From assembly GCA_031286045.1 (NCBI GenBank), contig JAITVA010000310.1, forward strand, positions 1 to 33,801: a DNA stretch of 33,801 bases, written 5' to 3'. The position numbers and the translations under genes were made by a program. The DNA is from Propionibacteriaceae bacterium (GTDB lineage: Bacteria > Actinomycetota > Actinomycetes > Propionibacteriales > Propionibacteriaceae). Every line of letters begins with the position of its first letter. Position 1 is the first letter of the stretch. Below the pieces are notes generated by a model, which was given only the letters and a program-made list of their open reading frames with translations, was not told where the DNA came from and did no database searches. Positions 1 through 26,991 of this stretch are shown piece by piece.

Positions 1-1063
1 ACGTCTGCTCCGCCACACCCAAATCACCACGCCGCAAAGCAACCTTCGCCACATTATCAAGACTCACAGACAAGTCACGAGCCGACTCAGGCGTACCCAA
101 CTGCCGATTAAGATCCTCACCTCGGGTTCGCTCGCGGTCGACTAGCCTTCTACTGACATCTAGCCCAATCCCCAAACTATTGGAGTGTCTGAAAATACTG
201 TCGTATGTGCGGAGAGCAAAGCTATCTGCAGCAGGCTGATCAAGACTGGATGCAGCGCCCTCCACTTCATTCACCGCCTCGATGATTAGGCTGTCCACCA
301 AGTCAGTCGACGCCCCGCTGCAACTCTCGACCGCAGCGGAAGCAAGGTTCACAAATAGGAGGCCGATATGCGAGGCGTACCCTTTGATGGTCATATCATG
401 TAGTTGTTGACGCGCACGAATTGGATTGTCGGGGAGGCTGCGATAGATCGCGTTGATGTCGTTGATGGCATTCTTGGCCTCCTGGTCAAACAGCGCCTCC
501 GGAACAACAATAGTGGGAGGTCGCCAGGGTCCAGTAATCTCATGGGTCATCGTGATGGCGTCATCCCAGACTCGCGGCTTGGGCAATTGGGCGGCGACCG
601 ACGGCTCGATCAAACGCGCAAAGCTCACGATTGACCACAAATCAGGAGCACGCAAAATCGCGAAATCTTGAAGATATGGCGGTGCCAGAACAACGCAGGC
701 CCCCCCGCCCAGCAGACGGGTGCGGAGCAAGTTGAGCGTCGCCAGCGCATCCAGGTTCGCGCGTGCAGTCGCGTGAACGAGATCGACCACCAGAACTCCG
801 GCGATAGGGAGATAGCGCGCAGCCCAGGATGAGAAACCCTCCGAATAGCGTTGAGTGTACGACCAACTTTCGGTGCTGGCGAGATTCTTCAGCCGTTGCA
901 TCATCAACAATAGATAGTGTTCAACATAGTCAAACTGGCCGTCAATGAACACAAAGGATACTGAAGGCCGTGACTCAAGCATCGCCAAGTGGTGCGCGAG
1001 GTCTCGCCACACGCAATCAAAACTATCGCGTGTCAGTCTTTGAGGGCTCTTTCCTTTTGTCAC
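1..1063 (-). CDS. TPR-repeat protein with an N-terminal degenerate ATPase/STAND-like region; C-terminus truncated by the window edge
   Basis: Hand translation from GTG at 1063 is open to position 1 (MTKGKSPQRLTRDSFDCVWRDLAHHLAML...VLVVDLVHATARANLDALATLNLLRTRLLGGGACVVLAPPYLQDFAILRAPDLWS...TPESARDLSVSLDNVAKVALRRGDLGVAEQT). LNLLRxxLL + APDLWS resembles STAND-like NTPases; the end resembles TPR units. GTGA overlap with the upstream ATPase stop. Not in the ORF track because it runs off the edge. Confidence 0.8.
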   Translation of the reverse strand, partial: MTKGKSPQRLTRDSFDCVWRDLAHHLAMLESRPSVSFVFIDGQFDYVEHYLLLMMQRLKNLASTESWSYTQRYSEGFSSWAARYLPIAGVLVVDLVHATARANLDALATLNLLRTRLLGGGACVVLAPPYLQDFAILRAPDLWSIVSFARLIEPSVAAQLPKPRVWDDAITMTHEITGPWRPPTIVVPEALFDQEAKNAINDINAIYRSLPDNPIRARQQLHDMTIKGYASHIGLLFVNLASAAVESCSGASTDLVDSLIIEAVNEVEGAASSLDQPAADSFALRTYDSIFRHSNSLGIGLDVSRRLVDRERTRGEDLNRQLGTPESARDLSVSLDNVAKVALRRGDLGVAEQT

Positions 1064-2397
1064 TTCGACGCAGACTCATGTGATTCGGAGCTCTCTCTCT
1101 CAATCAGTGGGACAAGGAGAGGGTGCACCCCCATCCAATCTTCACCGTTGCTGTACCGCAGAATCGCTCCGATCGACTGGAGATCCTCGTAGTCGGCCAT
1201 GTCATCGATTCCAGGCTCGTAAGGGGGTTCCCCAGGACTCTGGTGCCGTAGAACCGCGCGCAGGATCTTTCCTCGTTGTGCCGTGATGGTGTCTCCCGTC
1301 ATTCTTCTGCCCGCTTCCCGTGTAGCGAGCAACAGTTGTTCCTCCGTGACCGGGGCCGCATCAGTCATAAGTAAAACTCGCGTCAGCACCTCGAAGAGCG
1401 AACGAAAAAACCCTCCGGAAGCCAGAATGGCCTTCCGCTCAAGATCAGGTGAGGCAAAGAGGGACAGCGAATCCCCGCCAGGTGCTCGCTGTGCAAGAAC
1501 CCGGTGTAGTGCTTCTAGTCCCTCCTCGCACGGAGTTCCATCGCGCTCTTGGGTCTTGACGCAATACAAACGGAAGACCGGCCACGGAACGCGGTCTTGG
1601 ACATAAGCGGGCGCACAATAGACCGTGTGCAGATTGGGAAGTTCAAGGTCGTCACGATCATTGACGAAGACACTAATGACGGAATCTCGCACGGTCGCAT
1701 ACGTGCCTCCCCAACCCCTCCAGTGCTCTAGCGAGTCGATCACCAGAAGCGGAGTTAATGGGGACCTCCCTCGTAACGCAATGGCTGCTTCTGAGATGAG
1801 TGCATGCAATTCAGCACGCACCGTTGCTCGGTTCTGCCTCATCGCTCGCTCGACTATTTCACGCTGGCTTGGGTCGATATCAATGAAAGAAGGCAACTCA
1901 AAGGACATCGGGCCGACTGACACCGACCCAGACCCCAGTCGGTCAGGAAGGGCGAGATGGATTCGGTCAAAAGACTTCTTAAGCCGCGACCACCACGTCT
2001 GTGCGCCAATTGATTCCACCGGCACCTGCTGGACAACTTCCCTCAAGAATGCAGCGGCGATACTAGGCAGCAGCAGCCCAGGCGACAACGGCTGAGCCGG
2101 AGAAAGTAGGCTTTCCATGTCGATTCGCACATAGGCGCGACCATGCGCCATCGCGTCTCTGCCCAGCTTGATCAATTCAGTGCTTTTGCCGCTTCCTCGT
2201 GGGCCACACAACACCTGCGTGGTACTTGTCCCTGCTGAACGCTGGATGACACGTGACATCTGAGAGTCGGCAGACTCTTCCCCTCGAACACTAGAGTCAT
2301 CAATGTCTACAAAGTACTTTAGGTCTGGATCCGATTGCGCTGTGGCCGCAGCGGCGACGCTCTGGTAAAACTGAGTCACATACTTCTCATCAAGCAT
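1060..2397 (-). CDS. P-loop ATPase (AAA/STAND-like) of an ATPase + TPR pair
   Basis: 445 aa ORF with Walker A GPRGSGKSTEL and Walker B-like LLVIDSLEHW; overlaps the next gene by GTGA. Confidence 0.8.
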   Translation of the reverse strand: MLDEKYVTQFYQSVAAAATAQSDPDLKYFVDIDDSSVRGEESADSQMSRVIQRSAGTSTTQVLCGPRGSGKSTELIKLGRDAMAHGRAYVRIDMESLLSPAQPLSPGLLLPSIAAAFLREVVQQVPVESIGAQTWWSRLKKSFDRIHLALPDRLGSGSVSVGPMSFELPSFIDIDPSQREIVERAMRQNRATVRAELHALISEAAIALRGRSPLTPLLVIDSLEHWRGWGGTYATVRDSVISVFVNDRDDLELPNLHTVYCAPAYVQDRVPWPVFRLYCVKTQERDGTPCEEGLEALHRVLAQRAPGGDSLSLFASPDLERKAILASGGFFRSLFEVLTRVLLMTDAAPVTEEQLLLATREAGRRMTGDTITAQRGKILRAVLRHQSPGEPPYEPGIDDMADYEDLQSIGAILRYSNGEDWMGVHPLLVPLIERESSESHESASK

Positions 2398-4180: not shown

Positions 4181-4485
4181 TGTCAACCACCGTGATGAAC
4201 GTGAAAGTGGATGTCGACCTCAAGCGCGAGGCCCAATCACTCGCCAGAAGCCTAGGTATTCCTCTCAGCGCTGTCGTGTCGAGTTCTCTCAAGGCATTCG
4301 TCGCGGCCAGAGAAATCACCTTCCGGGACGATGAACGTCTCGCCCCGTCAGTTGAAGCAGAGCTCCTGCAAATGTCGGCGGACGCGCAAGCCGGTCAGTG
4401 GGACGACTTCTCGCCTAGTTTCGACAATAGCCACGAGGCCATCGCCTGGCTTCAAAGCGCTGTGGAGTCCGAGACCACCGCATGA
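4180..4485 (+). CDS. RelB/DinJ-family antitoxin
   Basis: MSTTVMNVKVDVDLKREAQSLARSLGIPLSAVVSSSLKAFVAAREITF; GAGG just upstream of ATG at 4180 (track ORF starts at 4060, upstream); ATGA overlap with toxin. Confidence 0.85.
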   Translation: MSTTVMNVKVDVDLKREAQSLARSLGIPLSAVVSSSLKAFVAAREITFRDDERLAPSVEAELLQMSADAQAGQWDDFSPSFDNSHEAIAWLQSAVESETTA

Positions 4486-4742
4486 ACGTGCGCTTCTCCA
4501 AACGTCTCGTCAAACAACTCGCGAAGCTATCCAAACGAATCCAAGCCACGACCTACACCCGAATTGACCTGATGCTGGCCAACCCAGACGACCCCATCCT
4601 GCGCCGCCACCGCCTCAAAGGCCATCTCCACCACCTCTGGAGCATCGACATCACCAGCGATGTTCGAGCCCTCTACGAAACCATCGGCGACGACGCCATC
4701 ATCTACCAGCTCATCGGCACTCACTCAGAACTATATAGGTAG
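4482..4742 (+). CDS. RelE/YafQ-family mRNA interferase toxin
   Basis: 86 aa; RRHRLKGHLHHLWSIDITSDVRALYETIGDDAIIYQLIGTHSELYR; 4-nt overlap with antitoxin. Confidence 0.87.
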   Translation: MNVRFSKRLVKQLAKLSKRIQATTYTRIDLMLANPDDPILRRHRLKGHLHHLWSIDITSDVRALYETIGDDAIIYQLIGTHSELYR

Positions 4743-5293: not shown

Positions 5294-8185
5294 TCAGAAG
5301 GCTCCGAAAGTCGTGCCTGCGTCACCATGCTCTGGAGTGATGAGGATGTTGTTCCCGCCGGGCTCCCACGCGTCCACGGTATCGGGGAAACCAGTCTCGC
5401 CCCGCTTGACACATTTCCACTCGATGGCAGACGACGGCGGCAACCCCTCGATCACCCCAGTCCACGTGGGATATGCGCTGGGTTCAAGCTTGACCGCACT
5501 CGCTGCCGACCAGTTCCCCAGTTGTGGCGCACTTCCCACCACATAGACAGATTGACCGAAAGTGGTATTTCCATTCTCACAGGTGAACCGGGCCTGCACT
5601 GGAAGCTGATCAAGCGCGAACGCGAATGATTTCTCCAGATCAACGGACGAAGGATCCGCCTTAGCGACAATCACGCCACTGCCGGCGTTGTACCATCCAC
5701 TGCTAGCCAGATCAAAGCCTGTCTTATTCGGGTACTTCGTCAGAGTGACCCCGCCCAATGTCACCTGGGAGGCCTGACTCCCACCAGTCACCAACTCAAC
5801 CACAGTCGCCCGCGAAGTCGGCGCACCAGCGTAAGCGCCTGAGGCCGAACCCACTGTGACTGTCGCCGTATCCCCGGTCAGAATCTGACTGATATCTGTC
5901 GTTCGCACCGCCCCAGACTGATAGGCCGTGGTCGCCCCATCATCCTCGTAAAGCGTGAAACTGCTCGAGTTGTCGTCGGCGTAGACAGTGGCGATGAGCT
6001 CATCATGAACGGAGCCATCCGTTCGATGGCCAGCAATGTCTTTGGTTCCAGCATCCACGAACGCCTTGGGAATGATGGCGCCCGCTCGAGCATATGCTGG
6101 GAGCGTGAACACCCCGTTACGCCAGACGGGAACATCCCTGATCCACTGACCCGAACTCTCAATGCGCTCATTGGTGTGGATGTCGATCCACGATCCCACC
6201 GGTAGATAGACGTCCCGCGATCGCTCCGCCTGACCGGCCACGATAGCAATCAACAGATCCCGACCAAGCATCTTCTCATGACCCATTTCCCTGACTTCAG
6301 GGTCGTCTTGGTAGTAGTAGACCAGGGGTGGCGCCAGTGGTTCACCGAACTGGTTGGCACGATGGGCCAGTGAGTAGTAGTACGGAGCCAACTCATAGCG
6401 ACGCAACAAATTCTCGCGATTGCTCGCCTGATCACCGATCTTATCCGGTGTCGTCTCGAAACAGTTGCAGAGGTTTTCCGTGTGGGGCCGAATCGGAGTG
6501 TCGAACCAGGCACTGTCCGCGAACCACTGGGTGTACAACTCATCAAGATCACTGTCCAGCATTTCTCGCCGGAAACCACCGATATCGGACCCGTAGTAGT
6601 CGACGCCAGACATAGACATATGCATCTGAGCGTTCTGCTGGCTGGCCAGAGCCTTCATCGTCGAGCCTATATCAGCGGACCACATCGCCGCCCCAGTCCG
6701 CTGGATGCCAGCGGCGCCAGTTCTGGTGAGCAAGAATGGTCTGACGGTCTCCGAGTTGCGCTCATATCCGTCAGCGACGCTCTCCGCCCACAGAAGGCCA
6801 TAGACATTATGGTAGTCGGCATGCGCGTGCTTGCCTGGAAGGACGCCCGCTGTCCAATCTGCCTCGTCGTACATCTCCGGTTCACCCAGATCGAGCCAGT
6901 GGCCGAGCACCCCCTCGTCCACCAGGTGCTGGCGCTGCTCATCATGCCAAACCGCTCCTGCGGCCGGCTGTGTCCAGTCGATCATGCCACCCTTGCCCCA
7001 CCAAGGGTTGCCAGTCAGATAGACCGGCGCACACGTCGGACAGCCCGCTCGAACCAAGTAGCCGCTGGCTGCCATGGCCGCATGCTCAGGGAGGTTCTGC
7101 CCGACATAGGACTCCTCAATCGGAATGATGCCCACTCCGTCTTCGGCATAATCGGCGAGTTTGGCTGCTGGATTCGGAAAAGCCCGAATGTCCCAATCGA
7201 TACTACCCATGGCCGTGTCATCTGAGTTGGCAGTCACCCCACCAAACCACTGCACGTCGAGCATCGCTCCATCCACCGGAAAGGCTGACTCCCGTAGCCC
7301 TGCGATAGTGGAGTCCAACTCCGCCCAGTTGTCGAAGCCGAACTCCGAAGCCCACAGGCCAAAAGCCTTCATCGGTGGCACCGGTGGCAATCCGGTCAGT
7401 TCCATGTAGTCCTGACGCAGATCCGGCAGGTCTTCCCCAGACATGACGTACCAGCGGAGTTGATCGCCCCAGGTGCGCATGGTCCACGGATCCCCGGTCA
7501 GATTCCACTCCTGTTTGTAAATCTGGTCGACAAACAACCCATAGTTCGCATGGTTCGCGCCGACTGCGAACAAGACAGGAATTTGGGCATTGCCGACGGG
7601 GCCATTCTCATTGTCGTAGGTCATCGCATTGCCATAGTTGCCGCCTGGGCTTCGAACTCGTCCCACCCAATCGCCGTCGGCACTGCCACCAGTGAAAAAC
7701 TGTTGCCCTAAGCCATAGGCGTTCTCCATTGATCCCTGACTGATGTTGAGGCCTTTCCAACCCTGAGAAAGATCAGCCGGACAAACCTCATGAAGGCGCA
7801 GTTCGGGCATTCGAGTCGTGTCGGTGACGGTGACGCAAAGACTAGTCTGATCAACCCCGATCCGCAGATCAGCAGTCTCCACAGTCGAACCAAAGACCCG
7901 GTACACGCTCGGCCCCAGGTAATCAGTCTTCTCCACCTGGGCGGTGGTGAACAGCGGATCATTAGTCCCAGGGGATGTTCCAGCTCCAGCCACCTCAAAG
8001 TGAACAAGGTCGTCGTCGAGCACCTCCACAATAAGATAACTAGAACCGAGCAGGTATTGAGTCCTCTGAATCCCAAGCGGAGACGCCGCACTGGCTTCGA
8101 TCCGCGTCAAAGCGACACACGTTGCCGGCATAGTCAAAGCTGCGATCGCCACAATCAAAGGACGACGTAATCGCGAAGTAAACAT
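5294..8185 (-). CDS. ctsZ: Secreted GH31 6-alpha-glucosyltransferase (cycloalternan pathway), with C-terminal CBM20-like domain
   Basis: Signal peptide; EVLDDDLVHFEV, MLDVQWFGG, GHWLDLGEPEMYD, QMHMSMSGVDYYGSDIGGFRRE, RPHTENLCNCFETTPDKIG, FGQSVYVVGSAPQLGNW; resembles Bacillus globisporus CtsZ as I recall it. Confidence 0.88.
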   Translation of the reverse strand: MFTSRLRRPLIVAIAALTMPATCVALTRIEASAASPLGIQRTQYLLGSSYLIVEVLDDDLVHFEVAGAGTSPGTNDPLFTTAQVEKTDYLGPSVYRVFGSTVETADLRIGVDQTSLCVTVTDTTRMPELRLHEVCPADLSQGWKGLNISQGSMENAYGLGQQFFTGGSADGDWVGRVRSPGGNYGNAMTYDNENGPVGNAQIPVLFAVGANHANYGLFVDQIYKQEWNLTGDPWTMRTWGDQLRWYVMSGEDLPDLRQDYMELTGLPPVPPMKAFGLWASEFGFDNWAELDSTIAGLRESAFPVDGAMLDVQWFGGVTANSDDTAMGSIDWDIRAFPNPAAKLADYAEDGVGIIPIEESYVGQNLPEHAAMAASGYLVRAGCPTCAPVYLTGNPWWGKGGMIDWTQPAAGAVWHDEQRQHLVDEGVLGHWLDLGEPEMYDEADWTAGVLPGKHAHADYHNVYGLLWAESVADGYERNSETVRPFLLTRTGAAGIQRTGAAMWSADIGSTMKALASQQNAQMHMSMSGVDYYGSDIGGFRREMLDSDLDELYTQWFADSAWFDTPIRPHTENLCNCFETTPDKIGDQASNRENLLRRYELAPYYYSLAHRANQFGEPLAPPLVYYYQDDPEVREMGHEKMLGRDLLIAIVAGQAERSRDVYLPVGSWIDIHTNERIESSGQWIRDVPVWRNGVFTLPAYARAGAIIPKAFVDAGTKDIAGHRTDGSVHDELIATVYADDNSSSFTLYEDDGATTAYQSGAVRTTDISQILTGDTATVTVGSASGAYAGAPTSRATVVELVTGGSQASQVTLGGVTLTKYPNKTGFDLASSGWYNAGSGVIVAKADPSSVDLEKSFAFALDQLPVQARFTCENGNTTFGQSVYVVGSAPQLGNWSAASAVKLEPSAYPTWTGVIEGLPPSSAIEWKCVKRGETGFPDTVDAWEPGGNNILITPEHGDAGTTFGAF

Positions 8186-8245
8186 GTCAAGCCTTTCGTA
8201 AGGACTGGGCGGACCAAAGGCTCCGCCCCGGGCAATTCTGAGTAG

Positions 8246-8280
8246 GAGGCGAGGCCAAGAACCTTGTTGCGTCTCGCCTC
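8246..8280 (-). other. Intercistronic stem-loop 2 between the two secreted transferase genes
   Basis: GAGGCGAG / CTCGCCTC perfect 8-bp stem. Confidence 0.5.
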
Positions 8281-8298
8281 GCTCATTGATCTTGTGAT

Positions 8299-8340
8299 GA
8301 GGCTTCGGGTGGCCGGATGAACCAGTCCACCCGAAGCCTC
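8299..8340 (-). other. Intercistronic stem-loop 1 between the two secreted transferase genes
   Basis: GAGGCTTCGGGTGG / CCACCCGAAGCCTC perfect 14-bp stem, 14-nt loop. Confidence 0.7.
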
Positions 8341-8368
8341 GGCAGCAGCGCCATTCTGGGGAGCACCA

Positions 8369-11300
8369 CTATCGGGGAATCAAACCAAGATTGTCTAGAT
8401 TGATACCACCGTCGTCCATGGCCCCGTACACGATTCGAACACTGTGCCTGCCAGGGGTGAGACTGGAAGGAATACACGCCGTGCCCCACTGGTCCCAAGT
8501 CCCGGTCGGTGGGAGGCTGACAGGACCCAGGCTGACACCGTCGACATAGACTGTTCGACTGGCCGAGACACTAGCCCCGTTGCTATACCGGAACCCCAGT
8601 CGCTGAACGTCAGCGGCATCGACCCAGACATCGAACTGCACTGCGTCCCCGATGGAAGCGAACTCATCGACAAACCCCGGCCCCGTGTAGCCAATATGAT
8701 TGGCGTTGGTCGCCACGGTGATCTGGGTGGCGAACTCCGCTTCGTAAGCCGCTTTGTCGACCCCAGACAGGCTGATCGTTCGACTGGCGGGACTCGCGCC
8801 AACCTTGACGTAGGTGAGTTGCTCACGGGCATCCCACCACCAAGCCGAATCGACGGATGCCAACGCGGTCAGATCAGTAGCCTCGGGCAACGCCAGCCCA
8901 CTGACAGTGACTGCCGCTGGCTTGGTGCCGGACACCTGGAAGGTGCTGGTGGTGGTCAGCGATGGCGCCACAACAGTGACCGAGCGCTCAGTTCGATCAG
9001 CCGCGACTTGGATGAGGCGGTGGGCTGAGGCGCTATCCTCAAAATAGTCATAGCTACTTTCTGACGTGGGATACACTCGGAACACCAGGTTGTCGTAGGC
9101 ATTGACATCGTTGCGCATGGCACCGCCAAGTTCGTACTTGTTGTTCAGATTGAGCGGAATGATAGCACCCGCGCGCGCATAGACAGGGATGGTATCGACA
9201 CCGGCGTAGTATTGTTTGACGCTGTCGCCGATGGCGCGGCCACCATTCCAGAAGTCGTACCACTCGCCTTGCGGTAGATAGACGTCCTTCACCGCTTGAC
9301 CCTCGCTAGTGAGCGGCGCCACCAATAGTTGCGAGCCAAAGAGATACTGCTGATCGTGCCCGGCTGCGACCGAATCATCGGGAAACGCCAGACTCATCGC
9401 TCGCATCATCGGAACACCGGTGCTGGCACTGCGATCCGCCTCGGTATAGAGGTAGGGAACGAGGTTCATTCGAATGTTGGCGAACTTCGCGAAGGTGGGC
9501 ACGACGCTGGAGTCCCCAGTACGAGCCTGAACGTTCCACGGAGTCCGGGCTTCCGATGGGCTCGGATCTGATTTCTCCGAGTGATACTGCATAATTGAAG
9601 AGAAGGTAGCTTGAGCGGTGGCTCGGAGATAAAGCTCGGCGCTGGGGAAGGAGCCAGTGAATCCCGCCAAGTCCCATGCCCAGAAGGGGACACCGGACTG
9701 ACCAGCGCTCTGCCCCGCTCGAACTGCCTCTTGGAAAGCACCGAAGCTGGAGGACTGATCGCCTGCCCAGAAGATTGAAGAGGCCTGACCACCAGCAGTG
9801 CCGGCCCGGCTGAAGATCGCGCCATCACCAGCGGTGGCTGTCTGCACATAGGTGTTGTAGGCGGAGGTGTATTCGTTGGGATAAGCATTATGCATTTCAT
9901 CCCCATGGCGTCCGTCGCTCACCGTCAGATTTCGACCGAACAACGCCTCACTGCCGTCCGTCTTGAAACCATCTACTCCCATGCCAATGAGATAGTCCCG
10001 CTTACTCATCCACCAGTCGGTCGCAGCCTGATTGGTGAAGTCGGGCACGGTGCTGTCTCCAAACCACTGACCCGTTGGAATCCGATATGGCGCACCCGTC
10101 GCATCTTTCACAAGATAGCCCTGCCTTTCGGCGTAAGCCTGATCATTGAGATGTTGTTGTGGCGCGACACTCGGATTCGAGGTAAAGTTTTGTTTCAATA
10201 CTGGAATCTGCCACAGCACCACCCGAACTCCCTGATCATGAGCCTTCGCGATCATCTGCTCGGGATCACTCCATGCAGTTCCAGAGGGGAAAGTCAAGGA
10301 ATCAGCACTCAGTGCCCCACTACCGTCGGTTGGCGTGTATTGGGCATCTTTCCAGACATAGAAGGTCGCTTCATCGCTCCACTGTTCGAGAACGACGACG
10401 CTATGAGGAATACCCGAACTCTCAACTTGATCAAGCCAGCCTTCGACCTCCGCCTGAGTGTTCCACTCATTCGCCGACGCCCACAGTCCGAACGCCCATT
10501 TCGGTGGCAATTGGGGCCTTCCGGCAACACTAGTGAAATCATCGAGCATCTCAGCCTGGCCACCAGTGTAGAACTGGTACCCCAAAACGGAGTCCAGACC
10601 TCCTCCAGTGTCGACCGTGAACCCGGCCATGTCGTTCAGGTGAGTCGCCAGATTGAAGATCACGTATCGATCAGTCGGGATGTAGACGCCATAACCAGTG
10701 GAGTTCGCGAAATAGGGCACCGAGTAGTAAGTGCGCTGAGTCGTACCCTGATCCTGATACTGGTTGTAGACATAGTTGTGGACGTCGGTGCCTCGATGAT
10801 CGAGTCGGTCATACCGCTCACCGAACCCTTCGAAACGCTCGCCAACCGGACTCAAGAAATGATCCTCAATCTTGGTCACGGTAGTGGCGCCGTCGCTAGC
10901 CCAACCAATGTTTCGGAAGACCTGGGGATCGTATTGTTGCGTGATCAGCGTCGCCCCGTCACCTTTGTAAACCGACAAACGGTATGGATGCTTCTGAACC
11001 CTCAGAACCACATCAGTCGTGGCGATTTCCAACTGATCAGGCTGGTCAAGAACCGTGTATCCACCCATACCGACGAGACTCAGAGCCGAGCCCGTCGGTG
11101 ACACTTGAACGTCGAAACCGTCAAGACGCGGAAAGGCAAAACGAATCGCGGGTGTGAAGTCACCGGCACTATCACCGGTCATAACATCAACGGAGGTGCC
11201 GTTGTCGACATAGGATGTCACGTCAGTCACCGTGCTCCACGAGGTTGTAGCGAACCTGAACGGACCGACACTGCGCTGCCCACCGCCATTGACATCTGCC

Positions 11301-11728
11301 CGAACGGTGTACTCAACCTGGTCCCCACGCCCAAAAGAACCCAAATTGATCACCCAATAACTATTATTGCCTGAATTGTGGTTCCAGGCAGCACCGATAG
11401 GCGTCTGATCAACCCCGTTCAGCGACCATGTGACCCAGACTGTCTGCCCTGGAGCCACCGGCCAAGTCGTCGCCCGAAGCGTCACTTCTTCACCGTCCAT
11501 CGGATCACGCGGACTCCTCTCCGTCGGCTCTGTGCTGTAGAGATCATCGATACCGTACGGGCTATGCCAAACCCCTTCGAGCGCGTTGGCCTGAGCCGCC
11601 GGCGCCGCGATGAGGTTGACCATCAGCGCGCTCGCGACCAGACCAATGAGCACCGAAAGGTGAAGCTTGTGAGATCCCGCGCCAGAGGGGCGAGAGTGGA
11701 AACCGCCAAAAAGAGAAGGAATGTGCAT
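8369..11728 (-). CDS. ctsY: Secreted GH31 3-alpha-isomaltosyltransferase / cycloalternan-forming enzyme with C-terminal CBM35-like domain
   Basis: Signal peptide; GVWHSPYGIDDLYSTEPTERSPRDPMDGE, NSGNNSYWVINLGSFGRGD, VVLEQWSDEATFYVW, GVDGFKTDGSEALFGR, SGVPFWAWDLAGFTG, YEAEFATQ...NANHIGYTGPGFVDEF; resembles B. globisporus CtsY / CAFE. Confidence 0.92.
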   Translation of the reverse strand: MHIPSLFGGFHSRPSGAGSHKLHLSVLIGLVASALMVNLIAAPAAQANALEGVWHSPYGIDDLYSTEPTERSPRDPMDGEEVTLRATTWPVAPGQTVWVTWSLNGVDQTPIGAAWNHNSGNNSYWVINLGSFGRGDQVEYTVRADVNGGGQRSVGPFRFATTSWSTVTDVTSYVDNGTSVDVMTGDSAGDFTPAIRFAFPRLDGFDVQVSPTGSALSLVGMGGYTVLDQPDQLEIATTDVVLRVQKHPYRLSVYKGDGATLITQQYDPQVFRNIGWASDGATTVTKIEDHFLSPVGERFEGFGERYDRLDHRGTDVHNYVYNQYQDQGTTQRTYYSVPYFANSTGYGVYIPTDRYVIFNLATHLNDMAGFTVDTGGGLDSVLGYQFYTGGQAEMLDDFTSVAGRPQLPPKWAFGLWASANEWNTQAEVEGWLDQVESSGIPHSVVVLEQWSDEATFYVWKDAQYTPTDGSGALSADSLTFPSGTAWSDPEQMIAKAHDQGVRVVLWQIPVLKQNFTSNPSVAPQQHLNDQAYAERQGYLVKDATGAPYRIPTGQWFGDSTVPDFTNQAATDWWMSKRDYLIGMGVDGFKTDGSEALFGRNLTVSDGRHGDEMHNAYPNEYTSAYNTYVQTATAGDGAIFSRAGTAGGQASSIFWAGDQSSSFGAFQEAVRAGQSAGQSGVPFWAWDLAGFTGSFPSAELYLRATAQATFSSIMQYHSEKSDPSPSEARTPWNVQARTGDSSVVPTFAKFANIRMNLVPYLYTEADRSASTGVPMMRAMSLAFPDDSVAAGHDQQYLFGSQLLVAPLTSEGQAVKDVYLPQGEWYDFWNGGRAIGDSVKQYYAGVDTIPVYARAGAIIPLNLNNKYELGGAMRNDVNAYDNLVFRVYPTSESSYDYFEDSASAHRLIQVAADRTERSVTVVAPSLTTTSTFQVSGTKPAAVTVSGLALPEATDLTALASVDSAWWWDAREQLTYVKVGASPASRTISLSGVDKAAYEAEFATQITVATNANHIGYTGPGFVDEFASIGDAVQFDVWVDAADVQRLGFRYSNGASVSASRTVYVDGVSLGPVSLPPTGTWDQWGTACIPSSLTPGRHSVRIVYGAMDDGGINLDNLGLIPR

Positions 11729-11749
11729 ACGAACCCCTTAGTTCAGTAT

Positions 11750-11768
11750 TAAATTAAGTTCTAACTTA
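11750..11768. promoter_or_regulatory. Operator candidate upstream of ctsY sharing a half-site with the ROK intergenic operator
   Basis: TAAGTTCTAACTTA palindrome (11755-11768) within TAAATTAAGT, compare TAAAGTAAGT at 19930-19939. Confidence 0.45.
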
Positions 11769-12003
11769 TCATCGCCTTCGAACGGCTGTCAACGGAGTTT
11801 TCTCACTCACCGCTCACCACGGCCCATCTGCCTTCCGGTGCCACCATTGCTGAGTCAGGCCCAACATCAACGCGAGTGACCGGGGCCAAAGGTTGCGCCA
11901 ACGGCACATGGAAACAACCCCCATGCCGAACCTCCAAGGCTCTCACTGGGCACAACGACTGCGCGGTCGCACCGCCGAAGGGACTCTCGGTGGAAGAACG
12001 CGC

Positions 12004-14283
12004 TCAGACGGTGTGCTCGAAGACCGACCGCAGTTCGGCCCAGCGATCGGCGCGCACGTAGACCGGGACGCGATGGCGCGGAGTTTGACTGGCGACCACC
12101 ACCGGCCCCTGAACGGCCTCGCCACACCATGCGTCAACCCAGGAGCCCCTAGGCAGGTAGACCGGCCAATCGTTCGCCCCTGGCTCCAGCACTGGGGTGA
12201 CCAGAAGATCGTCGCCCAGCATCCATTGCAGCGGATGCTCCCAGATGACGGGGTCATCGACGAAGTCGAAGAACATCGGGCGCATCAGGGGCTTCGATGT
12301 AGTGACGGCGGCGCGGGCCTGGGCTGCTAGGTAGGGGATCAGACGTTCCCGCAATTCCACGATCTGACGAACCTCACCAATGACTGCCGCATCACCAGTT
12401 TGCGCCGCGATGTTCCACGGGGTTCGGTCACGCGACGGGCGACGATGATGGTTGAACTCGGAGTGGTACTGCATGATCGGCACGAAAGCGCTGGCTGCCA
12501 TCGCGCGGATGTACAGTTCGGCGTCGGGGGTCGGACCAGAGAAACCGGCGATGTCCCAACCCCAATACACCACCCCTGAAGCGGCGGCGTTGAGACCAGC
12601 CATGATCGACCAGCGGAAGGCCTCCCAGGTCGAATTCTCGTCACCGGCCCAGAAAGCTCCGTGGGCGGAAGAACCGGTGTACCCAGAACGAGAGAATGTC
12701 ACCGGCGCCTTGCCACACTCAGACAGGAGACGACCGTAAGCGGCCGCATAGCCCACCGGATAGGTGTTGTTCTTCTCTGCGCCTCCTCGACCGTCGAGGT
12801 AGACCAGATCCGGTCCCCAGGCGTGCTCCCCACCGTCAGTCTTGAAACCGTCGACTCCGATTTCGTCCACCAGGTAGCGCCGCCGATCGGTCCACCAGCG
12901 TGCCGCTCGTTCATCGGTGAGGTCAGGCATCAAGGCCAGAGGGAACCACCAGCCGCGATTACGGTAAGGTCGCAGGCTCCCATCGGGCGCCTCCTCGGAC
13001 ACAAGCACTCCATCGCGAAGTGCGGCCTCAGCATCAGCCTTCGCCTGCCCCTGAGGATGAGGACGCATCTTCATCAAAGGAATCTGCCACAAATGGACCC
13101 GCACACCCTGCTCGTGCAGCGTGTCAACCATGCCCTTGGGGTCAGGCCAGGCGCCATCGGGGGGAAAACTGAAGTCGGTCAGGTGGAAGGGGGAGCCGTC
13201 CTCATGGGTCTGGTAACGGGCGTCTCGGAAGATCGTGAATGTCGACTCGTCGCTCCACGCCTCAATGACCACATTCCCGACCGGGATGCGGTGGCGCTGA
13301 TGCAGGTCGATCTGACGCATCACCTCAGACTGGCTGTTCCACTCGTTGCCGGATGCCCAGAGCTTGAAGACCCATGCGGGCAGTTCCTGAGGCCGCCCAG
13401 TCTCGGCAAGAAAGGCGTCAAGCACCTCGGAGGGCATGCCCTGGTAGAAACCGACATGAAGACCGGTCTCATCCCCGCTAGGCAGGTCGGACTCAGCCTC
13501 CACCATGATCCGATCCCGGCGACTGGCTCCGATGTCGAACCAGACCCGGCGACTGGTGCGAACATGGAACCCCCATCCGTCGCCCCCGATGACATGGGCA
13601 AACGGGATCGGGAAGTAGGTTCGCCGATGCATCCCCTGGCTCTTGTACTGCTCAAAGACTTGGTTGTCGAGAGTAGCGCCCACCTGATCGAGGCGATCAT
13701 AGCGTTCGCCGAAACCGACAACATGTTCGCCTGGCTTCAGAGGCAACGCGAACCTGACTCGCCAGATACGTTGGCCGTCATCCAAGACCTCGACTCCGCT
13801 GACGGCGCCATCAGTCGGCTCCCCCGGCGACACGGTCGTACTCGACCACGCGCCGACCGAATCCTCGCAGCGAATGAAGGAGGCTGCGGCGAGACGCCAC
13901 TGGGCGGTACGGGTGGTGAACCAGCGAGTGACCTCAGTTTTGCGACCCTTATGGACAGCGACAAACCGATAACTGAACTCTCCGGCCGGCGGACTGGAAA
14001 GCTCCACCTGCCAACCACCGGATGTCCGATTCTGGCGAGCCTGGGCTGCAGCCAAATGGCCGCCATCAACCGACTGGCCTCGTGACGAGCGGACCACGGG
14101 AAACAAGGCCTGAATCCGTACCGGCTCCTCACCGTGCTGGATCTCCACGGTCACGCTGCTGGGCTGGCCCGAACAGCGGACGCCGAGACGGAGCTGCTCG
14201 CCTGCCACGGGATGGACGGGCCAGCGTTGCTCAGTGTCGGGAACATAGGGATGGCCAGCGCCAACGGGCCGATGCTGAATCAT
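12004..14283 (-). CDS. Intracellular GH31, cycloalternan-degrading-enzyme-like
   Basis: No signal peptide; paralogous to the isomaltosyltransferase (VGFGERYDRLDQVGATLDNQVFEQYKSQGMHRRTYFPIPF, NVVIEAWSDESTFTIFRDARY, IGVDGFKTDGGEHAWG, SGVVYWGWDIAGFSGPTPDAELY). Confidence 0.85.
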   Translation of the reverse strand: MIQHRPVGAGHPYVPDTEQRWPVHPVAGEQLRLGVRCSGQPSSVTVEIQHGEEPVRIQALFPVVRSSRGQSVDGGHLAAAQARQNRTSGGWQVELSSPPAGEFSYRFVAVHKGRKTEVTRWFTTRTAQWRLAAASFIRCEDSVGAWSSTTVSPGEPTDGAVSGVEVLDDGQRIWRVRFALPLKPGEHVVGFGERYDRLDQVGATLDNQVFEQYKSQGMHRRTYFPIPFAHVIGGDGWGFHVRTSRRVWFDIGASRRDRIMVEAESDLPSGDETGLHVGFYQGMPSEVLDAFLAETGRPQELPAWVFKLWASGNEWNSQSEVMRQIDLHQRHRIPVGNVVIEAWSDESTFTIFRDARYQTHEDGSPFHLTDFSFPPDGAWPDPKGMVDTLHEQGVRVHLWQIPLMKMRPHPQGQAKADAEAALRDGVLVSEEAPDGSLRPYRNRGWWFPLALMPDLTDERAARWWTDRRRYLVDEIGVDGFKTDGGEHAWGPDLVYLDGRGGAEKNNTYPVGYAAAYGRLLSECGKAPVTFSRSGYTGSSAHGAFWAGDENSTWEAFRWSIMAGLNAAASGVVYWGWDIAGFSGPTPDAELYIRAMAASAFVPIMQYHSEFNHHRRPSRDRTPWNIAAQTGDAAVIGEVRQIVELRERLIPYLAAQARAAVTTSKPLMRPMFFDFVDDPVIWEHPLQWMLGDDLLVTPVLEPGANDWPVYLPRGSWVDAWCGEAVQGPVVVASQTPRHRVPVYVRADRWAELRSVFEHTV

Positions 14284-15431
14284 GACAAGCCTCTCTCGAT
14301 TCCCAATGCTGGGCCAACGGCGTCAAGCTCCTGCCCCAAACGCAGGATCATGGCATGACTCCACAACAGTGGGCAGGCCACATCACCCCACCGATCCACC
14401 CAAGCGTCGCGCCGATCTGGCGCCAAGAGAAGCCCACCGTCGACCTGCTCCGGCACATCACCGTTTTCTTTCGCCTGACGAACAGCCCAGTTCAGCGTCT
14501 CGACCGCCCCCTTTTGATCGCCCTGAGCCAACCGGGCCAGCCCCAAAAAGCAAGTCAACAGGGGCCAGCGCCCGCCCCCGAAGAAGGTGTCCGCGCGGAA
14601 ACGGTAGACGCCACCCTCAGCCATGAGGCAGGACTCGATGGCAGCGACCGTTCCGCGCGCGACTTCCGAGCCAGGACGAACCACCCCAAGAGGCGCGATC
14701 AGAGCCGACAGACTGCCATCGACGACAGTGCTCCCGATCCACTTGGTCAGATGGGCTGGCTCTTCAGGAGCAAGGCCCTGGGCCGCGATCAGGTCTTCGA
14801 TGCTCCGCACGACAGTCTGAGCCGACTTTCGCCGAACCTCATCGAGGACACCGGAGAGGGCTGCCGAGGCCAGGCCCGCCTGAACACATCCGAGGGTCGA
14901 CACATGCACCGCTTCAGTGTGCTCTTCCCACCAGTCGAAACAGGGCCTGCGCCAAGAGCTGACAAGATAGTCCACCGTCAATCTCAGAGCGCCCGCCCAG
15001 CGGTCGATGGAACGGTGATGACGGCGGGCATGAGCCGTCGCGGCCCAGACCCAGGTGCCATAACCGTCGAGCTGAAAGTTCTCCCAACCGTCCTCCACGG
15101 AACTCCCGTCGAAGCGGAAACGAGTCGGCAGCATCTGCGAGTCAGGCAGCGGATCGCCGACTCGAGCGGCCGCGACGATAGCCTCAATTCTTGATCGGCG
15201 GTCGAGCACCACCCGCGCGCACCAATCGAAGAACGCTTCCGCAGACTCCACCTCTCCGATCGCTGACATGGCGTCCGCACTGAAAGAACCGTCTCTGAAC
15301 CAGCAGAAACCGCGATAGGCGAAGAAAGATTCGCAAGCCGGGTAGGCCCCGCTCGGCTGTTGGGCCTCAAGAATCACCGATCGAGAGTGTCGGATCACCG
15401 ATCCGACATCCGGTGATAGTGCGTTTGTCAT
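14280..15431 (-). CDS. GH15-like glucoamylase/isomaltose-acting glucosidase, cytoplasmic
   Basis: CWFRDGSFSADAM, WENFQLDGYGTWVWA, FDWWEEHTEAVHVSTLG; ATG at 15431 preceded by GAAGG (track starts at GTG 15443); ATGA overlap with the next GH31. Confidence 0.75.
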   Translation of the reverse strand: MTNALSPDVGSVIRHSRSVILEAQQPSGAYPACESFFAYRGFCWFRDGSFSADAMSAIGEVESAEAFFDWCARVVLDRRSRIEAIVAAARVGDPLPDSQMLPTRFRFDGSSVEDGWENFQLDGYGTWVWAATAHARRHHRSIDRWAGALRLTVDYLVSSWRRPCFDWWEEHTEAVHVSTLGCVQAGLASAALSGVLDEVRRKSAQTVVRSIEDLIAAQGLAPEEPAHLTKWIGSTVVDGSLSALIAPLGVVRPGSEVARGTVAAIESCLMAEGGVYRFRADTFFGGGRWPLLTCFLGLARLAQGDQKGAVETLNWAVRQAKENGDVPEQVDGGLLLAPDRRDAWVDRWGDVACPLLWSHAMILRLGQELDAVGPALGIERGLS

Positions 15432-15480
15432 AACTACCTTCACTGTTCAAAGGATGCGAGTACCTGGCTGAATGATGGCC

Positions 15481-15507
15481 GGGTCGGGTCGACGTGAGAC
15501 CCGACCC
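15481..15507 (-). other. Intercistronic stem-loop directly after the solute-binding-protein gene
   Basis: GGGTCGGGTC / GACCCGACCC perfect 10-bp stem, 7-nt loop, about 11 nt past the stop codon, no T-tract. Confidence 0.7.
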
Positions 15508-15517
15508 GACAAGGACT

Positions 15518-16780
15518 TCACTTCAGAAGCGGATCGACCTTCGTGGCTGCGGCTGCGACGGCTTCTTCAACACTGACCCGACCGGCAGCGGCTTCGGTCA
15601 ACTGCTCCGTGACCAAATCCTGCATCTGAGCCTGGTTGTCGCCAATGGATGGAGACAAGGCAACCTTGTCGAGCGCGTCGAACACGGCCTGACGATTCGC
15701 CGGCGCCCCAGCCTTGAGATAGGCGCCGAGCTTGGCCTCGTCAGAGATCGGGGGCAGTTCCCACCCGGCAGCCAGGCGGGTGTCCACCATGACATCAGAA
15801 CTCGTCATATACTCGACCCACTTTTGTGCGGCTTCCGCATGCTTGCTGGTCGCCGAGATCGCCATGGCGTTGGAGAACATGGCTGATGCCTTGGTTGTGT
15901 CACCGGGCTCGACCGCAATGTCCCAAGCGAAGGGGACGTCCGCCAAAGAACCGAACATCCAAATGCCAGTGTGCCACATCGCCAATTTGCCGTCGGCAAA
16001 GAGCTTCGAGTCGAAATCGGCCGTGCCTGCACCCTGCTCAGCCGTCGGCATGACTGTGCCAGACTTCTCCACCAGCCACTTGGCGGCCGCGATGCCTTGG
16101 GGCGTGTTGAAGGCGGTGTCAGTGCCGCCGGCGTTGAGGTACTTGCCTCCGGCTTGCGCGACCACCTTGTAGTACTCGTTGTAGCTGATCGGCTGATAGT
16201 CACCCCACTGACCGGCTTCCTGGTTGGTCAGTTTCTCAGCAGCGGCCTTCTCATCGGCCCAGGTCCAGTCAGCCGCCGGATAGGCGACACCAGCGGCGTC
16301 GAAAAGATCCTTGTTGTAGTAGAGCACGACGTTGGAGAAGGAACTTGGCAGGGCGTACTGTGTGCCATCGGTGGCGTAGGCCTGCGCCAAATTGGCCTGG
16401 TACACGGAGGTGTCGACCCCCTTGATCGCAGCCAGGACGCCATTGGCCTGGTACGCCTTGTAGTTGGCGTACTCGATGTCGAAGACGTCGGCGACAGTGC
16501 CGCCCGCAATGTCGGTCTGTAAAGCAGTGAAGTAGTCGGCATAAGGCAAGGTCTTGACGTCGACAGTGATTCCCGGGTTCGCAGCCTCGAAAGCGTCGAC
16601 GATCTTCGTGAGGTTCGCTTCGTTGGCCCCGGCCGAGATGAAGTTGGTGTAGGTGATGGTGACATCCTCACTGCCCGCAGTGGACGACGTGCCGCCGGGC
16701 GTGCCGTTTGAGCAGGCCGCCAGGCTGAGTCCGACAACGGCGGCGAGGCCGAGACGGACGAGATGGGTGAGACGTGACAT
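15518..16780 (-). CDS. Extracellular sugar-binding lipoprotein of a CUT1 ABC transporter
   Basis: Lipobox LSLAACSNG; VDVKTLPYADYFTALQTDIAGGTVADVFDIEY; GAAAGGAACC RBS. Confidence 0.9.
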   Translation of the reverse strand: MSRLTHLVRLGLAAVVGLSLAACSNGTPGGTSSTAGSEDVTITYTNFISAGANEANLTKIVDAFEAANPGITVDVKTLPYADYFTALQTDIAGGTVADVFDIEYANYKAYQANGVLAAIKGVDTSVYQANLAQAYATDGTQYALPSSFSNVVLYYNKDLFDAAGVAYPAADWTWADEKAAAEKLTNQEAGQWGDYQPISYNEYYKVVAQAGGKYLNAGGTDTAFNTPQGIAAAKWLVEKSGTVMPTAEQGAGTADFDSKLFADGKLAMWHTGIWMFGSLADVPFAWDIAVEPGDTTKASAMFSNAMAISATSKHAEAAQKWVEYMTSSDVMVDTRLAAGWELPPISDEAKLGAYLKAGAPANRQAVFDALDKVALSPSIGDNQAQMQDLVTEQLTEAAAGRVSVEEAVAAAATKVDPLLK

Positions 16781-16805
16781 GACAGGGTTCCTTTCTAGAG
16801 ATTTC

Positions 16806-17720
16806 CTATTTGATGCCTGTGTTGGCGACGCCCTGAATGACGTACTTCTGGGCGAAGAGATAGATGGCGAGCATGGGCAGAATGGAGACGATCGAACCGG
16901 CCATCATCACATCCCAGCGTGTGGTGTACTGACCCTGAAGACCGGCCAGAGCCAGCGGCAAGGTCTTCAACTCGTTGGAGCGGAGGATGATCAGGGGCCA
17001 CAGGAATGAATTCCATGAGTTCATAAAGGAGAAGACGGTCAAGGTGGCGATCGACGGCCCCACCAGGGGAAGGATGATCCGGGAGAAGATCGTCAGATGG
17101 CCAGCTCCGTCGATACGAGCGGCTTCGTCGAGTTCGCGGGGCAGCGAGTTCATGGCTTGGCGCAGCAAGAAGACACCAAAGGCACTGGCGACGGAAGGCA
17201 GGAGGACCCCGAGGTAGGAGTCGACGAGGCCGAGATTGCGCATCTGCACGAACAGCGGAACCAGCAAGACCTGCATGGGGATCATCATGGTCGCCAAGTA
17301 GAGGGCGAAGACGATGCTGCGACCGGGGAAGGGCATGCGCGAGAACACATAGGCCGCCATCGAACTGGTGATGATCTGCAACACCGTCGTCGCCACGGCC
17401 AAACCCAGGGAGTTCGCGATGATCCTGGCGAAGGGAGTCTTCCGGAACAGTTCGGCATAGGCGGCGAAGGAGGGATTGTCCGGAATGAGTTCCGGTGTGG
17501 CCGACATCCCCACCCCTGAGCTGACCGAGGTCGACAAGCTCCACAGGAAGGGGAAGAACATGACACACGCGCCAAGGATCAAAGCGACCAAAAGAACGGC
17601 CTTCCAGACCGGGCGGCGTCTGATCGGTGGCGTAGTCGATGATGGGTTCTCGGCGCCAGGGGTCCGACCGCGAGACCAAGCCGGTCTCTTTGCGGCAGTG
17701 GCTTGTCGCTGATCAGGCAT
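16806..17720 (-). CDS. CUT1 ABC sugar transporter permease, MalG-like
   Basis: EAA-type loop ELDEAARIDGAGHLTIFSRIILPLVGPSI; C-terminal KYVIQGVANTGIK. Confidence 0.92.
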   Translation of the reverse strand: MPDQRQATAAKRPAWSRGRTPGAENPSSTTPPIRRRPVWKAVLLVALILGACVMFFPFLWSLSTSVSSGVGMSATPELIPDNPSFAAYAELFRKTPFARIIANSLGLAVATTVLQIITSSMAAYVFSRMPFPGRSIVFALYLATMMIPMQVLLVPLFVQMRNLGLVDSYLGVLLPSVASAFGVFLLRQAMNSLPRELDEAARIDGAGHLTIFSRIILPLVGPSIATLTVFSFMNSWNSFLWPLIILRSNELKTLPLALAGLQGQYTTRWDVMMAGSIVSILPMLAIYLFAQKYVIQGVANTGIK

Positions 17721-18687
17721 AATTCACCCACTTCCGCTGACCAATCATCTGAACGACAGTGACGAGTAGAACCAGGAGGAAGAGCATCCACGACAGAGCC
17801 GAGGCTGTGCCCGCCTGTGAATAGCGGAAAGTCAGGTCGTAGACGCGCTCGACAACCACTGTCGAGGCGCCGGCCGGGCCACCGCCGGTCATGGCATACA
17901 CCTGATCGAAGACCTGGAAGCCGTTGATGAGGGAGATGACGGTGACAAAGAAAGTGCTTGGAGTGAGCATGGGGAAGGTGATGTGCCTTAGCCGTGCCCA
18001 CCAGCCGGCTCCATCGACTCGGGCCGCCTCGTAAAGGTCCTGCGGAATGGACTGGAGCCCGGCGAGGAGAATGACCATGACGAACCCGAGGTCCTTCCAG
18101 GCGGAGGCCAGGATGATCGAGGGAAGCGCCCAGTGAGGGTCGGTCCACCAACCAGGCCCCTGAACACCAACCAAGGACAAGAGATAGTTGGCGACGCCAC
18201 CGGACGGATTGAGGAGCCAACGCCACACCAAGGCGACCACGATCCAGCTCGTGACCACCGGAAGGAAGTAGACACCTCGGAGGAAGTTGCGGAAGGGCAC
18301 CGCCGAGTTCAAGGCGATGGCTAGCCCCAGACCACCGACATAGACCAGTGGAAAGTAGCCGACGATGTAGAGGACGGAGTTGAGGAAGGCTCGCTGCGTC
18401 AACGGATCATGAATCAAGTCGATGTAGTTCCCGACCCCGACCCAGGTCATGTCGGACAGAAGATTCCATTTGTGGAACGACACCCACAAAGCCGAGAACA
18501 TCGGGTAGACCGTGAAATAGACCAGCGGAATCGCACTGGGAGCCAAGAACAGGATGATGATCAAGGCATACTTCACCCGACTGGCGCGACGTCCTCGCCG
18601 AGCGGCGCCTGCGCTGCAGGAGCCCTTGGTCCGATCAAGAGATCCGGCGACTGGACTCATCGAAGCGGAGGACAGACCGACGCTCAT
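17713..18687 (-). CDS. CUT1 ABC sugar transporter permease, MalF-like
   Basis: QDLYEAARVDGAGWWARLRHITFPMLTPSTFF; overlaps malG-like start by 8 nt. Confidence 0.92.
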   Translation of the reverse strand: MSVGLSSASMSPVAGSLDRTKGSCSAGAARRGRRASRVKYALIIILFLAPSAIPLVYFTVYPMFSALWVSFHKWNLLSDMTWVGVGNYIDLIHDPLTQRAFLNSVLYIVGYFPLVYVGGLGLAIALNSAVPFRNFLRGVYFLPVVTSWIVVALVWRWLLNPSGGVANYLLSLVGVQGPGWWTDPHWALPSIILASAWKDLGFVMVILLAGLQSIPQDLYEAARVDGAGWWARLRHITFPMLTPSTFFVTVISLINGFQVFDQVYAMTGGGPAGASTVVVERVYDLTFRYSQAGTASALSWMLFLLVLLVTVVQMIGQRKWVNYA

Positions 18688-19913
18688 GATCGACGCCTCA
18701 GGTCACTCGACGAGCCAACGTCAGTCAGACGTTGACGAACCCACTCGCCCTGATCACCCGACACCCCTTGAGCGTCGAAGGGAGTGCCCAAGACCAAACA
18801 AGCAGCGCCTTGAGCCCAGCGGTCGTCCTGCCAGGTCTCGACCGCCACAGGCACACCCCGTCTGGCTGGCACCACGGCTGATCGGAAGGCTGGCTCGAAG
18901 CCATACATCCAGTGTCGCCAAGCGGCCACGCCCTCGCCGAGCACAATCACCACCTCGGGATCGATGGTGTTGACCACGCCTGCCAGCGCCCGGCCGAGTC
19001 GGCGCCCGGCCTGAGTGAGAATCTCCTGAGCACGGGCATCACCGTGGTCGGCCCGAATGCGTAAGGCGTCAATACCTTGTTGAGAACCGATGACACCAGC
19101 CGATCGAGCGCTGTTGACCAAGCCTTGTTGACCAATCACCGCCTCCAGGCACCCTTGAGCGCCACATTGGCACAGCGGTCCACCTTCCACGGTCGGAATG
19201 TGCCCGATCTCTCCGGCAGCGCCTGAGTGCCCCCTGAACACCGCTCCGTCAATGATCAGACCAGCGCCGACACCAGTGCCAATCGTCACGACCAGCGCGT
19301 CAGCATGACCCCGAGCCTGTCCATAAAGGACTTCGGCGGTCGCCAAAGCATTGACATTATTGTCAACCAAAACTGGCAGGTCGAACTCGTGCCGCAAGGT
19401 AGCGCCGACAGGAACGCCATTCCATCCGAGCTGAGTCGATTCGACTGTGCCGACGCTTTGCTGGTCGACACTGCCCGGAACGGCAAGTCCGATGCCGAGC
19501 AGGCGCGGACTGACGCCGCCTTCGATGAAGCCACGAAGGATGGCCGTCAGCGCGACCAAGGAACCGGGCGCTGATGCTCGAAAAGGCTCCGTGGCGGACC
19601 TCAGGACTCCTCCGTCGATACCCGCTTCGACGACGGTGACATGATCCGCCGCCACTTTGGCACCGATGACACTGCCCGCCGCTGATGCTAGACCGAGCAA
19701 ACGAGCCGGGCGACCGCCCTTCGAAGGCGAACTCTCCAGCTCAGTGATCAGGCCATCGTCGAGCAGACCCTTGGTCACCTGTGTCACCAAAGCGGGTGAG
19801 ACACCCAGAACTCGCGCAAGGTCTGTTCGCGAAGCAGGACCATGACCACCAATGAAAGTCAATACAGCAGATCTGGTCATGTCTGCCTTCGCCGAGAACT
19901 GCATCGTCACCAC
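18684..19913 (-). CDS. ROK-family transcriptional regulator 1
   Basis: N-terminal wHTH (SRTDLARVLGVSPALVTQVTKGLLDDGLI), VDNNVNA, GTGVGAGLI, CQCGAQGCLE zinc motif; overlaps permease start by 4 nt. GTG start uncertain. Confidence 0.9.
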   Translation of the reverse strand: MVTMQFSAKADMTRSAVLTFIGGHGPASRTDLARVLGVSPALVTQVTKGLLDDGLITELESSPSKGGRPARLLGLASAAGSVIGAKVAADHVTVVEAGIDGGVLRSATEPFRASAPGSLVALTAILRGFIEGGVSPRLLGIGLAVPGSVDQQSVGTVESTQLGWNGVPVGATLRHEFDLPVLVDNNVNALATAEVLYGQARGHADALVVTIGTGVGAGLIIDGAVFRGHSGAAGEIGHIPTVEGGPLCQCGAQGCLEAVIGQQGLVNSARSAGVIGSQQGIDALRIRADHGDARAQEILTQAGRRLGRALAGVVNTIDPEVVIVLGEGVAAWRHWMYGFEPAFRSAVVPARRGVPVAVETWQDDRWAQGAACLVLGTPFDAQGVSGDQGEWVRQRLTDVGSSSDLRRRS

Positions 19914-26964: not shown

Positions 26965-26991
26965 AATGGGCCTCTTCCTATGTCAACCGAC

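Follow-up and report, generated by a model that had tools for sequence, protein, structure and literature searches.

An ATPase gene and a Walker-less partner gene at a Propionibacteriaceae contig end: probably a STAND-like conflict switch split over two polypeptides

The window analysed here is a stretch of 33,801 nucleotides from a Propionibacteriaceae bacterium and represents an entire contig (C240), whose end is window position 1. Two overlapping genes occupy this end, both on the minus strand, as are all features of the pair described below: ORF1 (1060-2397), an intact frame of 445 amino acids encoding an ATPase, and ORF2 (2-1063), which begins with GTG and encodes at least 354 amino acids of a Walker-less partner. 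As reported in the preliminary description of this DNA, the stop of ORF1 overlaps the start of ORF2 by 4 nt in the sequence GTGA (1060-1063), and the second frame is open to the left edge, reaching position 2. Since the contig goes no further, the truncation of ORF2 comes from the assembly and is not just an effect of where the window was drawn. Searches of the genome assembly for the rest of ORF2, with the C-terminus of a relative and with a profile, retrieved the window alone. Relatives from the same genus match both ORF1 (E-values of 5e-67 and 4e-54, with 35% and 33% identity) and ORF2 (6e-23 and 9e-19, with 30% and 28% identity), and in both sister genomes the ATPase and its partner are adjacent in the order seen here, surrounded by unrelated flanking genes. 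By these comparisons, ORF1 and ORF2 are genuine genes. A first search of genome contigs using a single protein as query had given no match.

The remainder of the window contains several other features. A type II toxin-antitoxin pair (4183-4742, plus strand) consists of a RelB/DinJ-like antitoxin (ORF end at 4485) overlapping a RelE/YafQ-like toxin (approximately 4482-4742). Three consecutive glycoside hydrolase family 31-like genes, encoding 963, 1119 and 759 amino acids (5294-14283, minus strand), stand first in what looks like a polysaccharide-use cluster; after them (14280-21327) come a likely ABC sugar transporter and ROK-type regulators. A likely sortase/pilin cluster (25334-31978, minus strand) comprises a sortase (26020-26964), a signal peptidase (28389-29003) and surface proteins (26992-28305 and 28991-31978, with discoidin-like repeats); this cluster and the toxin-antitoxin pair were read from sequence. 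No RNA features or tRNAs were found in the window.

Alignment, AlphaFold and Foldseek assign ORF1 to the AAA+ ATPases of the ORC/Cdc6-STAND clade, with a lid and a C-terminal winged-helix-like end. The best Foldseek matches of the AlphaFold model (pLDDT 89, pTM 0.90) are ORC4/Cdc6, TnsC, mS29/DAP3, Apaf-1, CED-4 and the RADAR ATPase RdrA, which places ORF1 in the ORC/STAND clade, and the protein has the hallmarks of that clade, namely Walker A and Walker B motifs, a sensor-2 arginine, a helical lid, a C-terminal winged helix and an ORC/Apaf-1 fold. The Walker A motif GPRGSGKS (2182-2205) corresponds to GxRGSGK[ST] in all 37 full-length relatives, a conservation that is partly by construction as most of them were retrieved with a Walker A pattern. 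In the Walker B motif LLVIDS (1732-1749), Asp221 is an aspartate in 37 and a glutamate in one of the 38 aligned sequences. The SGGFFR motif of the lid (1402-1419) contains an invariant Gly329 and Arg332 (35/38), the latter probably acting like sensor 2 by analogy with ORC and STAND proteins. The winged-helix-like end carries the motif WMGVHPLL (1114-1137), which reads WxxVHPL across the 38-sequence alignment (W 37/38, H 35/38, P 37/38). Pfam detected AAA_16 alone in ORF1, weakly and below threshold. PADLOC and NCBIfam gave nothing above cut-off for the window proteins; the best matches, seen in some relatives, were to mad8 (1.5e-6) and DS41_1 (4e-5), and the DS41_1 match of the window copy spans only the P-loop.

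In the N-terminal region of ORF2 (residues ~12-152; 608-1030) the preliminary description saw the late part of a STAND-like ATPase. We reject this reading, as AlphaFold predicts a complete, compact alpha/beta domain here, which we consider a putative docking domain. In the model its five strands alternate with helices (pLDDT ~90) and the AAA+ lid is absent. It is thus predicted to share with compact iSTAND/BrxB-type domains a five-stranded alpha/beta core devoid of both Walker motifs and a C-terminal helical bundle. The earlier observation that this protein has no Walker A holds beyond the window: ORF2 has none, and an alignment of 37 partner N-domains shows none either. Two motifs were observed in these domains: LNxxR (LNLLR, 722-736), with an invariant Arg114 (R 37/37, N 36/37), and APDLWS (632-649), with Asp141 invariant in the 37-partner alignment. 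A further arginine, two residues past the second motif at partner position 146, occurs in 30 of the 37 partners and is a valine in the window copy. This position lies where the helix preceding the last strand ends, and by analogy AAA+ proteins carry an arginine finger there. The domain is absent from Pfam. Its Foldseek matches are AAA+ proteins (Orc3, RFC and other clamp loaders, RuvB, Avs4; E ~1e-3), with low TM-scores that are explained by the two-domain query. A profile comparison of the partner N-domain with the ATPase by hhalign gave a probability of 13%, at which homology is not established; we therefore call this domain iSTAND-like by fold, not a proven STAND descendant. A sequence match of ORF2 in the PDB to the toxin RnlA (E 0.44) was taken as chance.

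Beyond this domain, the ORF2 model (pLDDT 89 and pTM 0.55 overall) shows a flexible linker to about residue 188 and is then all-helical to its end. Residues 194-354 (2-484) are predicted to form alpha-helical repeats, probably as an alpha-solenoid. The first canonical TPR-like unit, LGTPESARDLSVSLDNVAKVALRRGDLGVAEQT (2-100), is broken by the contig end and shares 79% identity over 28 residues with a repeat of the L017 partner. The TPR-like repeats announced for ORF2 are therefore only partly borne out by the window copy, which is incomplete and in which Pfam detects no TPR; they gain support from the predicted helical repeats and from the homologues, 24 of 33 partners matching the Pfam family TPR_12.

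An alignment-based search of genome contigs yielded 38 loci from about ten phyla (Actinomycetota, Myxococcota, Acidobacteriota, Planctomycetota, Verrucomicrobiota, Pseudomonadota, Chloroflexota, Hydrogenedentota, Thermodesulfobacteriota and a WOR-3 bacterium), and in nearly all of them the gene directly 3' of the ATPase encodes a partner with the signature LNxxRN..L...APDLWSVR. The partner starts between -36 and +31 nt relative to the ATPase stop in 33 homologous loci, at or before the stop in 18 of these. When partner and ATPase profiles were searched independently in 34 genomes, chosen because they carry the ATPase, 49 of 50 partner domains were encoded on the ATPase strand, directly downstream of an ATPase; the one exception is found 1.3 kb upstream of a complete ATPase-partner pair at the same locus. 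This adjacency makes the two-gene unit look obligate, and the pairing of a functional-looking ATPase with a Walker-less, repeat-bearing partner, proposed from the window alone, is thus found again in the homologues; a lack of co-occurrence, which would have counted against the proposal, was not observed. Conversely, 18 of the 67 ATPase matches in these genomes have no detected partner, some of them being at contig ends or next to a more divergent partner (L051). Among 397 genomes of the phylum that were not chosen for the ATPase, intact partner domains occur only where the ATPase is present; in addition, one orphan fragment on a 3-kb contig (G326), where the ATPase is absent, looks like a remnant. 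The distance matrices of ATPase and partner are correlated (r=0.88, permutation p=0.0002), with a contribution from shared species ancestry, and r is 0.64 for distant pairs only. Two loci have other layouts. In a verrucomicrobial locus (L121:4666-9900) the order is partner, ATPase, partner, which suggests that one ATPase may serve two partners. In Archangium violaceum (L026:9989-12049) the C-terminus of the ATPase is fused to an AAA_15/AAA_21-like ATPase, and no separate partner is seen between the fused gene and the contig end.

What follows the N-domain of the partner is variable, and this swapping of modules is a direct observation. Besides the TPR arrays, we found tails composed of SIR2_2-NACHT-FGE (L035), TIR_2 with another P-loop region behind it (L027), metallophosphoesterase, NA-iREase3, NACHT and WD40 (L105), nSTAND1 (L112, L113) and nSTAND1 with HEAT-like repeats (L103), as well as nSTAND1-WD40 tails on Acaryochloris conjugative plasmids (L069, L071), the L069 partner having 1920 amino acids with TPR, nSTAND1-like and WD40 regions. 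Some of these assignments come from reading the sequence: the metallophosphoesterase and NACHT in L105, the HEAT-like repeats in L103 and nSTAND1 in L069. The SIR2 and TIR tails presumably point to NAD+ depletion in those members, judging from what is established for these domains. Paralogue expansion accompanies this diversity: one actinobacterial MAG (G735; L102-L111 and L050) contains 14 ATPase matches (11 near full length and 3 partial) and 8 partner domains, whose tails, where read, include TPR arrays, nSTAND1 with HEAT-like repeats and metallophosphoesterase-NACHT-WD40, and it would be good material for diversification studies. Tail swapping and paralogue expansion have been used by Kaur and colleagues to define conflict systems (PMC7159879, PMC8195603). 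The TPR arrays are near-identical in DNA (9 x 144 bp at 92%, 15 x 123 bp at 88% and 2.9 x 141 bp at 95%). This may be the reason that so many partner ORFs, ORF2 included, leave their contigs inside repeats.

The partners of the nearest relatives are short, ending after 1-2 TPR units (377 amino acids in L016, 372 in L020, 429 in L017 and ~389 in L018), while that of L019 is open at 528 amino acids or more. An end of the left frame just beyond the window, without TPRs or an effector, would count against the interpretation in the preliminary description; this applies in part, since the partners of these relatives have TPRs but no known effector in their 372-429 amino acids. No recognisable effector was found in the short partners or in the window copy, and the genes that come next in L017 and L020, which by our reading are sugar epimerase-like, UTP-sugar transferase-like and diaminopimelate epimerase-like, do not resemble one either. 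The window copy may thus be sensor-only. Such short TPR-only partners in the nearest relatives are also what would be expected of a signalling or regulatory switch without an immune role, comparable to MalT or AfsR. In such a switch, a STAND-type ATPase and a TPR partner would respond to a metabolite or peptide by controlling transcription or physiology; the TPR-only members, including the window copy, would be of this kind, and the immune fusions would be later co-options. MalT-like TPR matches occur in 14 of 33 partners, the TPRs of AfsR match the partner profile, and the neighbouring genes are mostly metabolic or transport genes. However, no DNA-binding domain was recognised in the partners, and the patchy presence, differing neighbours and repeated SIR2, TIR and NACHT tail swaps are unlike a conserved regulator. 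We regard this alternative as unlikely.

The distribution of the pair is indeed patchy: the ATPase is present in 3 of 19 genomes of the genus and in 2 of 397 of the phylum, and flanking genes differ among all three genus genomes. Mobility is apparent from its location on two Acaryochloris conjugative plasmids (L069:3427-17148 and L071:997-16372), near NACHT, HicAB and tyrosine recombinase genes in the first case and near CHAT, NB-ARC and TIR genes in the second. Carriage on plasmids with recombinases nearby, together with the high Foldseek rank of ORC/Cdc6 and TnsC, could also fit an ATP-dependent assembly or DNA-transaction factor, in which an ORC/TnsC-like ATPase and its adaptor would act on mobile elements, for instance in target selection or plasmid maintenance. 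Yet no transposase or replication gene was seen to recur with the pair, and the tails are protein-binding repeats or NADase and NACHT modules instead of nucleases or integrases, making such a function very improbable. The role in conflict anticipated by the preliminary description draws support from the alternative tails and the paralogue expansion, but the enrichment near defence genes that it suggested looking for was not seen: the 100 neighbour proteins at 19 loci, counted without a matched control set, are mostly housekeeping (metabolic, transport), with only scattered single PADLOC matches. Searches of phage records and IMG/VR gave no match, and in the open-licence literature we found no paper naming the APDLW motif or the ATPase-partner pair.

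Taken together, the observed pairing, patchy spread, plasmid carriage, differing tails and paralogue expansion support a modular conflict system in the form of a split NLR-like switch. We therefore propose, with a probability of roughly 0.6, that the two genes together encode an NLR/STAND-like conflict switch whose parts are divided between two polypeptides, and that this is probably a little-studied alarm system of the immune type. The strongest evidence for this interpretation comes from the relatives, not from the window copy. The window ATPase is on a long branch (2.35, compared with 0.59 for L016), and this, together with the loss of the arginine at partner position 146, indicates that the window copy could be diverging or decaying. 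If it were a decaying remnant, with a truncation that is real in the genome and not confined to the contig, the absence of the missing tail from the rest of the assembly would also be accounted for. However, both frames are open and all ATPase motifs intact, the contig breaks within a repeat unit, the kind of place at which near-identical repeats can be expected to stop an assembler, and many partner ORFs in other MAGs leave contig ends in the same way; decay of this copy is accordingly improbable.

In the split switch that we propose, ORF1 would most likely be the nucleotide-driven switch and assembly subunit. ORF2 would dock onto it via its degenerate AAA-like domain, which is presumably unable to bind ATP, and would thereby present its C-terminal module. 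In most members this module would be a recombining TPR array, likely a sensor; in others, which have SIR2-NACHT-FGE, TIR, metallophosphoesterase-NACHT-WD40 or nSTAND1-WD40 there, it may act as an effector or as an additional signalling unit. Sensing of an invader or stress product by the C-terminal module would trigger nucleotide exchange in the ATPase and assembly of a hetero-oligomer, which in turn would activate the module or a downstream target, probably resulting in abortive-infection-type immunity. While the motifs and predicted folds are direct observations, we infer the physical interaction, the assembly, the ligand and the immune outcome. Precedents for such docking are BrxC with the compact inactive STAND protein BrxB (PMC12839542), the iSTAND of MoxR-vWA systems (PMC7159879) and the nSTAND2 operons (PMC8195603).

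A broader and more tentative reading is that the pair belongs to a widespread, unnamed split-NLR family, with a constant ATPase and Walker-less docking core, interchangeable sensors or cell-suicide effectors, and TPR arrays diversified by repeat recombination, of which the window would contain a sensor-only actinobacterial member. If so, the NLR/STAND switch would be divisible between two genes, one for a reusable ATPase and one for an exchangeable sensor/effector, with a dead ATPase domain linking the products, and the pair would offer a tractable experimental handle on how inactive AAA+ subunits gate immune assembly. A profile of LNxxR...APDLWS downstream of an ORC-like ATPase would then retrieve many more systems away from defence islands, where they escape guilt-by-association.

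Several known systems resemble the pair in part. Like RADAR (RdrA and RdrB), it is a two-gene unit, and RdrA is among the fold matches of ORF1; in contrast to RADAR, it has no deaminase partner, and RdrA chains have ~835-850 residues, whereas the ATPase here has 445. With single-chain STAND/NLR proteins (Avs, NACHT, Apaf-1, CED-4) it shares the ATPase fold, the logic of a C-terminal TPR/WD40 sensor and the SIR2 and TIR modules, and Avs4 is among the fold matches of the partner. However, the switch is here one polypeptide and the sensor or effector another, and a dedicated Walker-less domain would connect them. Compact iSTAND domains are known from BrxB and BrxF of BREX (NAR 2026 gkag035, PMC12839542) and from MoxR-vWA systems (eLife 2020;9:e52696, PMC7159879). 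They are rapidly evolving five-stranded alpha/beta domains without Walker motifs or a C-terminal helical bundle, and their partners are the ORC/Cdc6-clade ATPase BrxC or another AAA+ ATPase (PMC12839542, PMC7159879). The N-domain of ORF2 is likewise predicted to be five-stranded, is Walker-less and is encoded beside an ORC/Cdc6-clade ATPase. In contrast to BrxB and BrxF, it is predicted to lack the three-stranded cap after strand 4, the ORF2 model having only helices between strand 4 (residues 122-127) and strand 5 (147-152), and in contrast to both BrxB/BrxF and the MoxR-vWA iSTAND, the iSTAND-like domain here is N-terminal to repeats or effectors. No BREX genes were seen at the loci read, nor were MoxR or vWA genes in the window or at three annotated plasmid loci.

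Along with these compact iSTAND domains, the closest designs are the counter-invader nSTAND2 operons, in which two adjacent genes encode an active and an inactive STAND-type ATPase, the inactive one being fused to variable modules (eLife 2021;10:e70394, PMC8195603). These operons are mobile and said to be closest to DAP3/CR-ATPases, and their inactive protein mostly carries GT4 or HEPN effectors (PMC8195603). The pair resembles them in having an active ATPase adjacent to a Walker-less partner with variable modules, and the fold search with ORF1 returned DAP3/mS29 among its best matches. It differs in its inactive domain, which is compact, has no AAA+ lid and is usually followed by TPRs. Both products of an nSTAND2 operon have STAND-type cores, one active and one with eroded NTP-binding motifs; here the pairing, the active ATPase and the Walker-less partner are seen, but the partner core is AAA-like by fold only, the hhalign probability being low. 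No match to the Pfam nSTAND2 model was obtained, and neither GT4 nor HEPN effectors were recognised among the tails found (33 partners; 25 most frequent Pfam families). The pair is probably a paired active/inactive STAND-type conflict operon, and one that is probably distinct from nSTAND2 as described in the literature.
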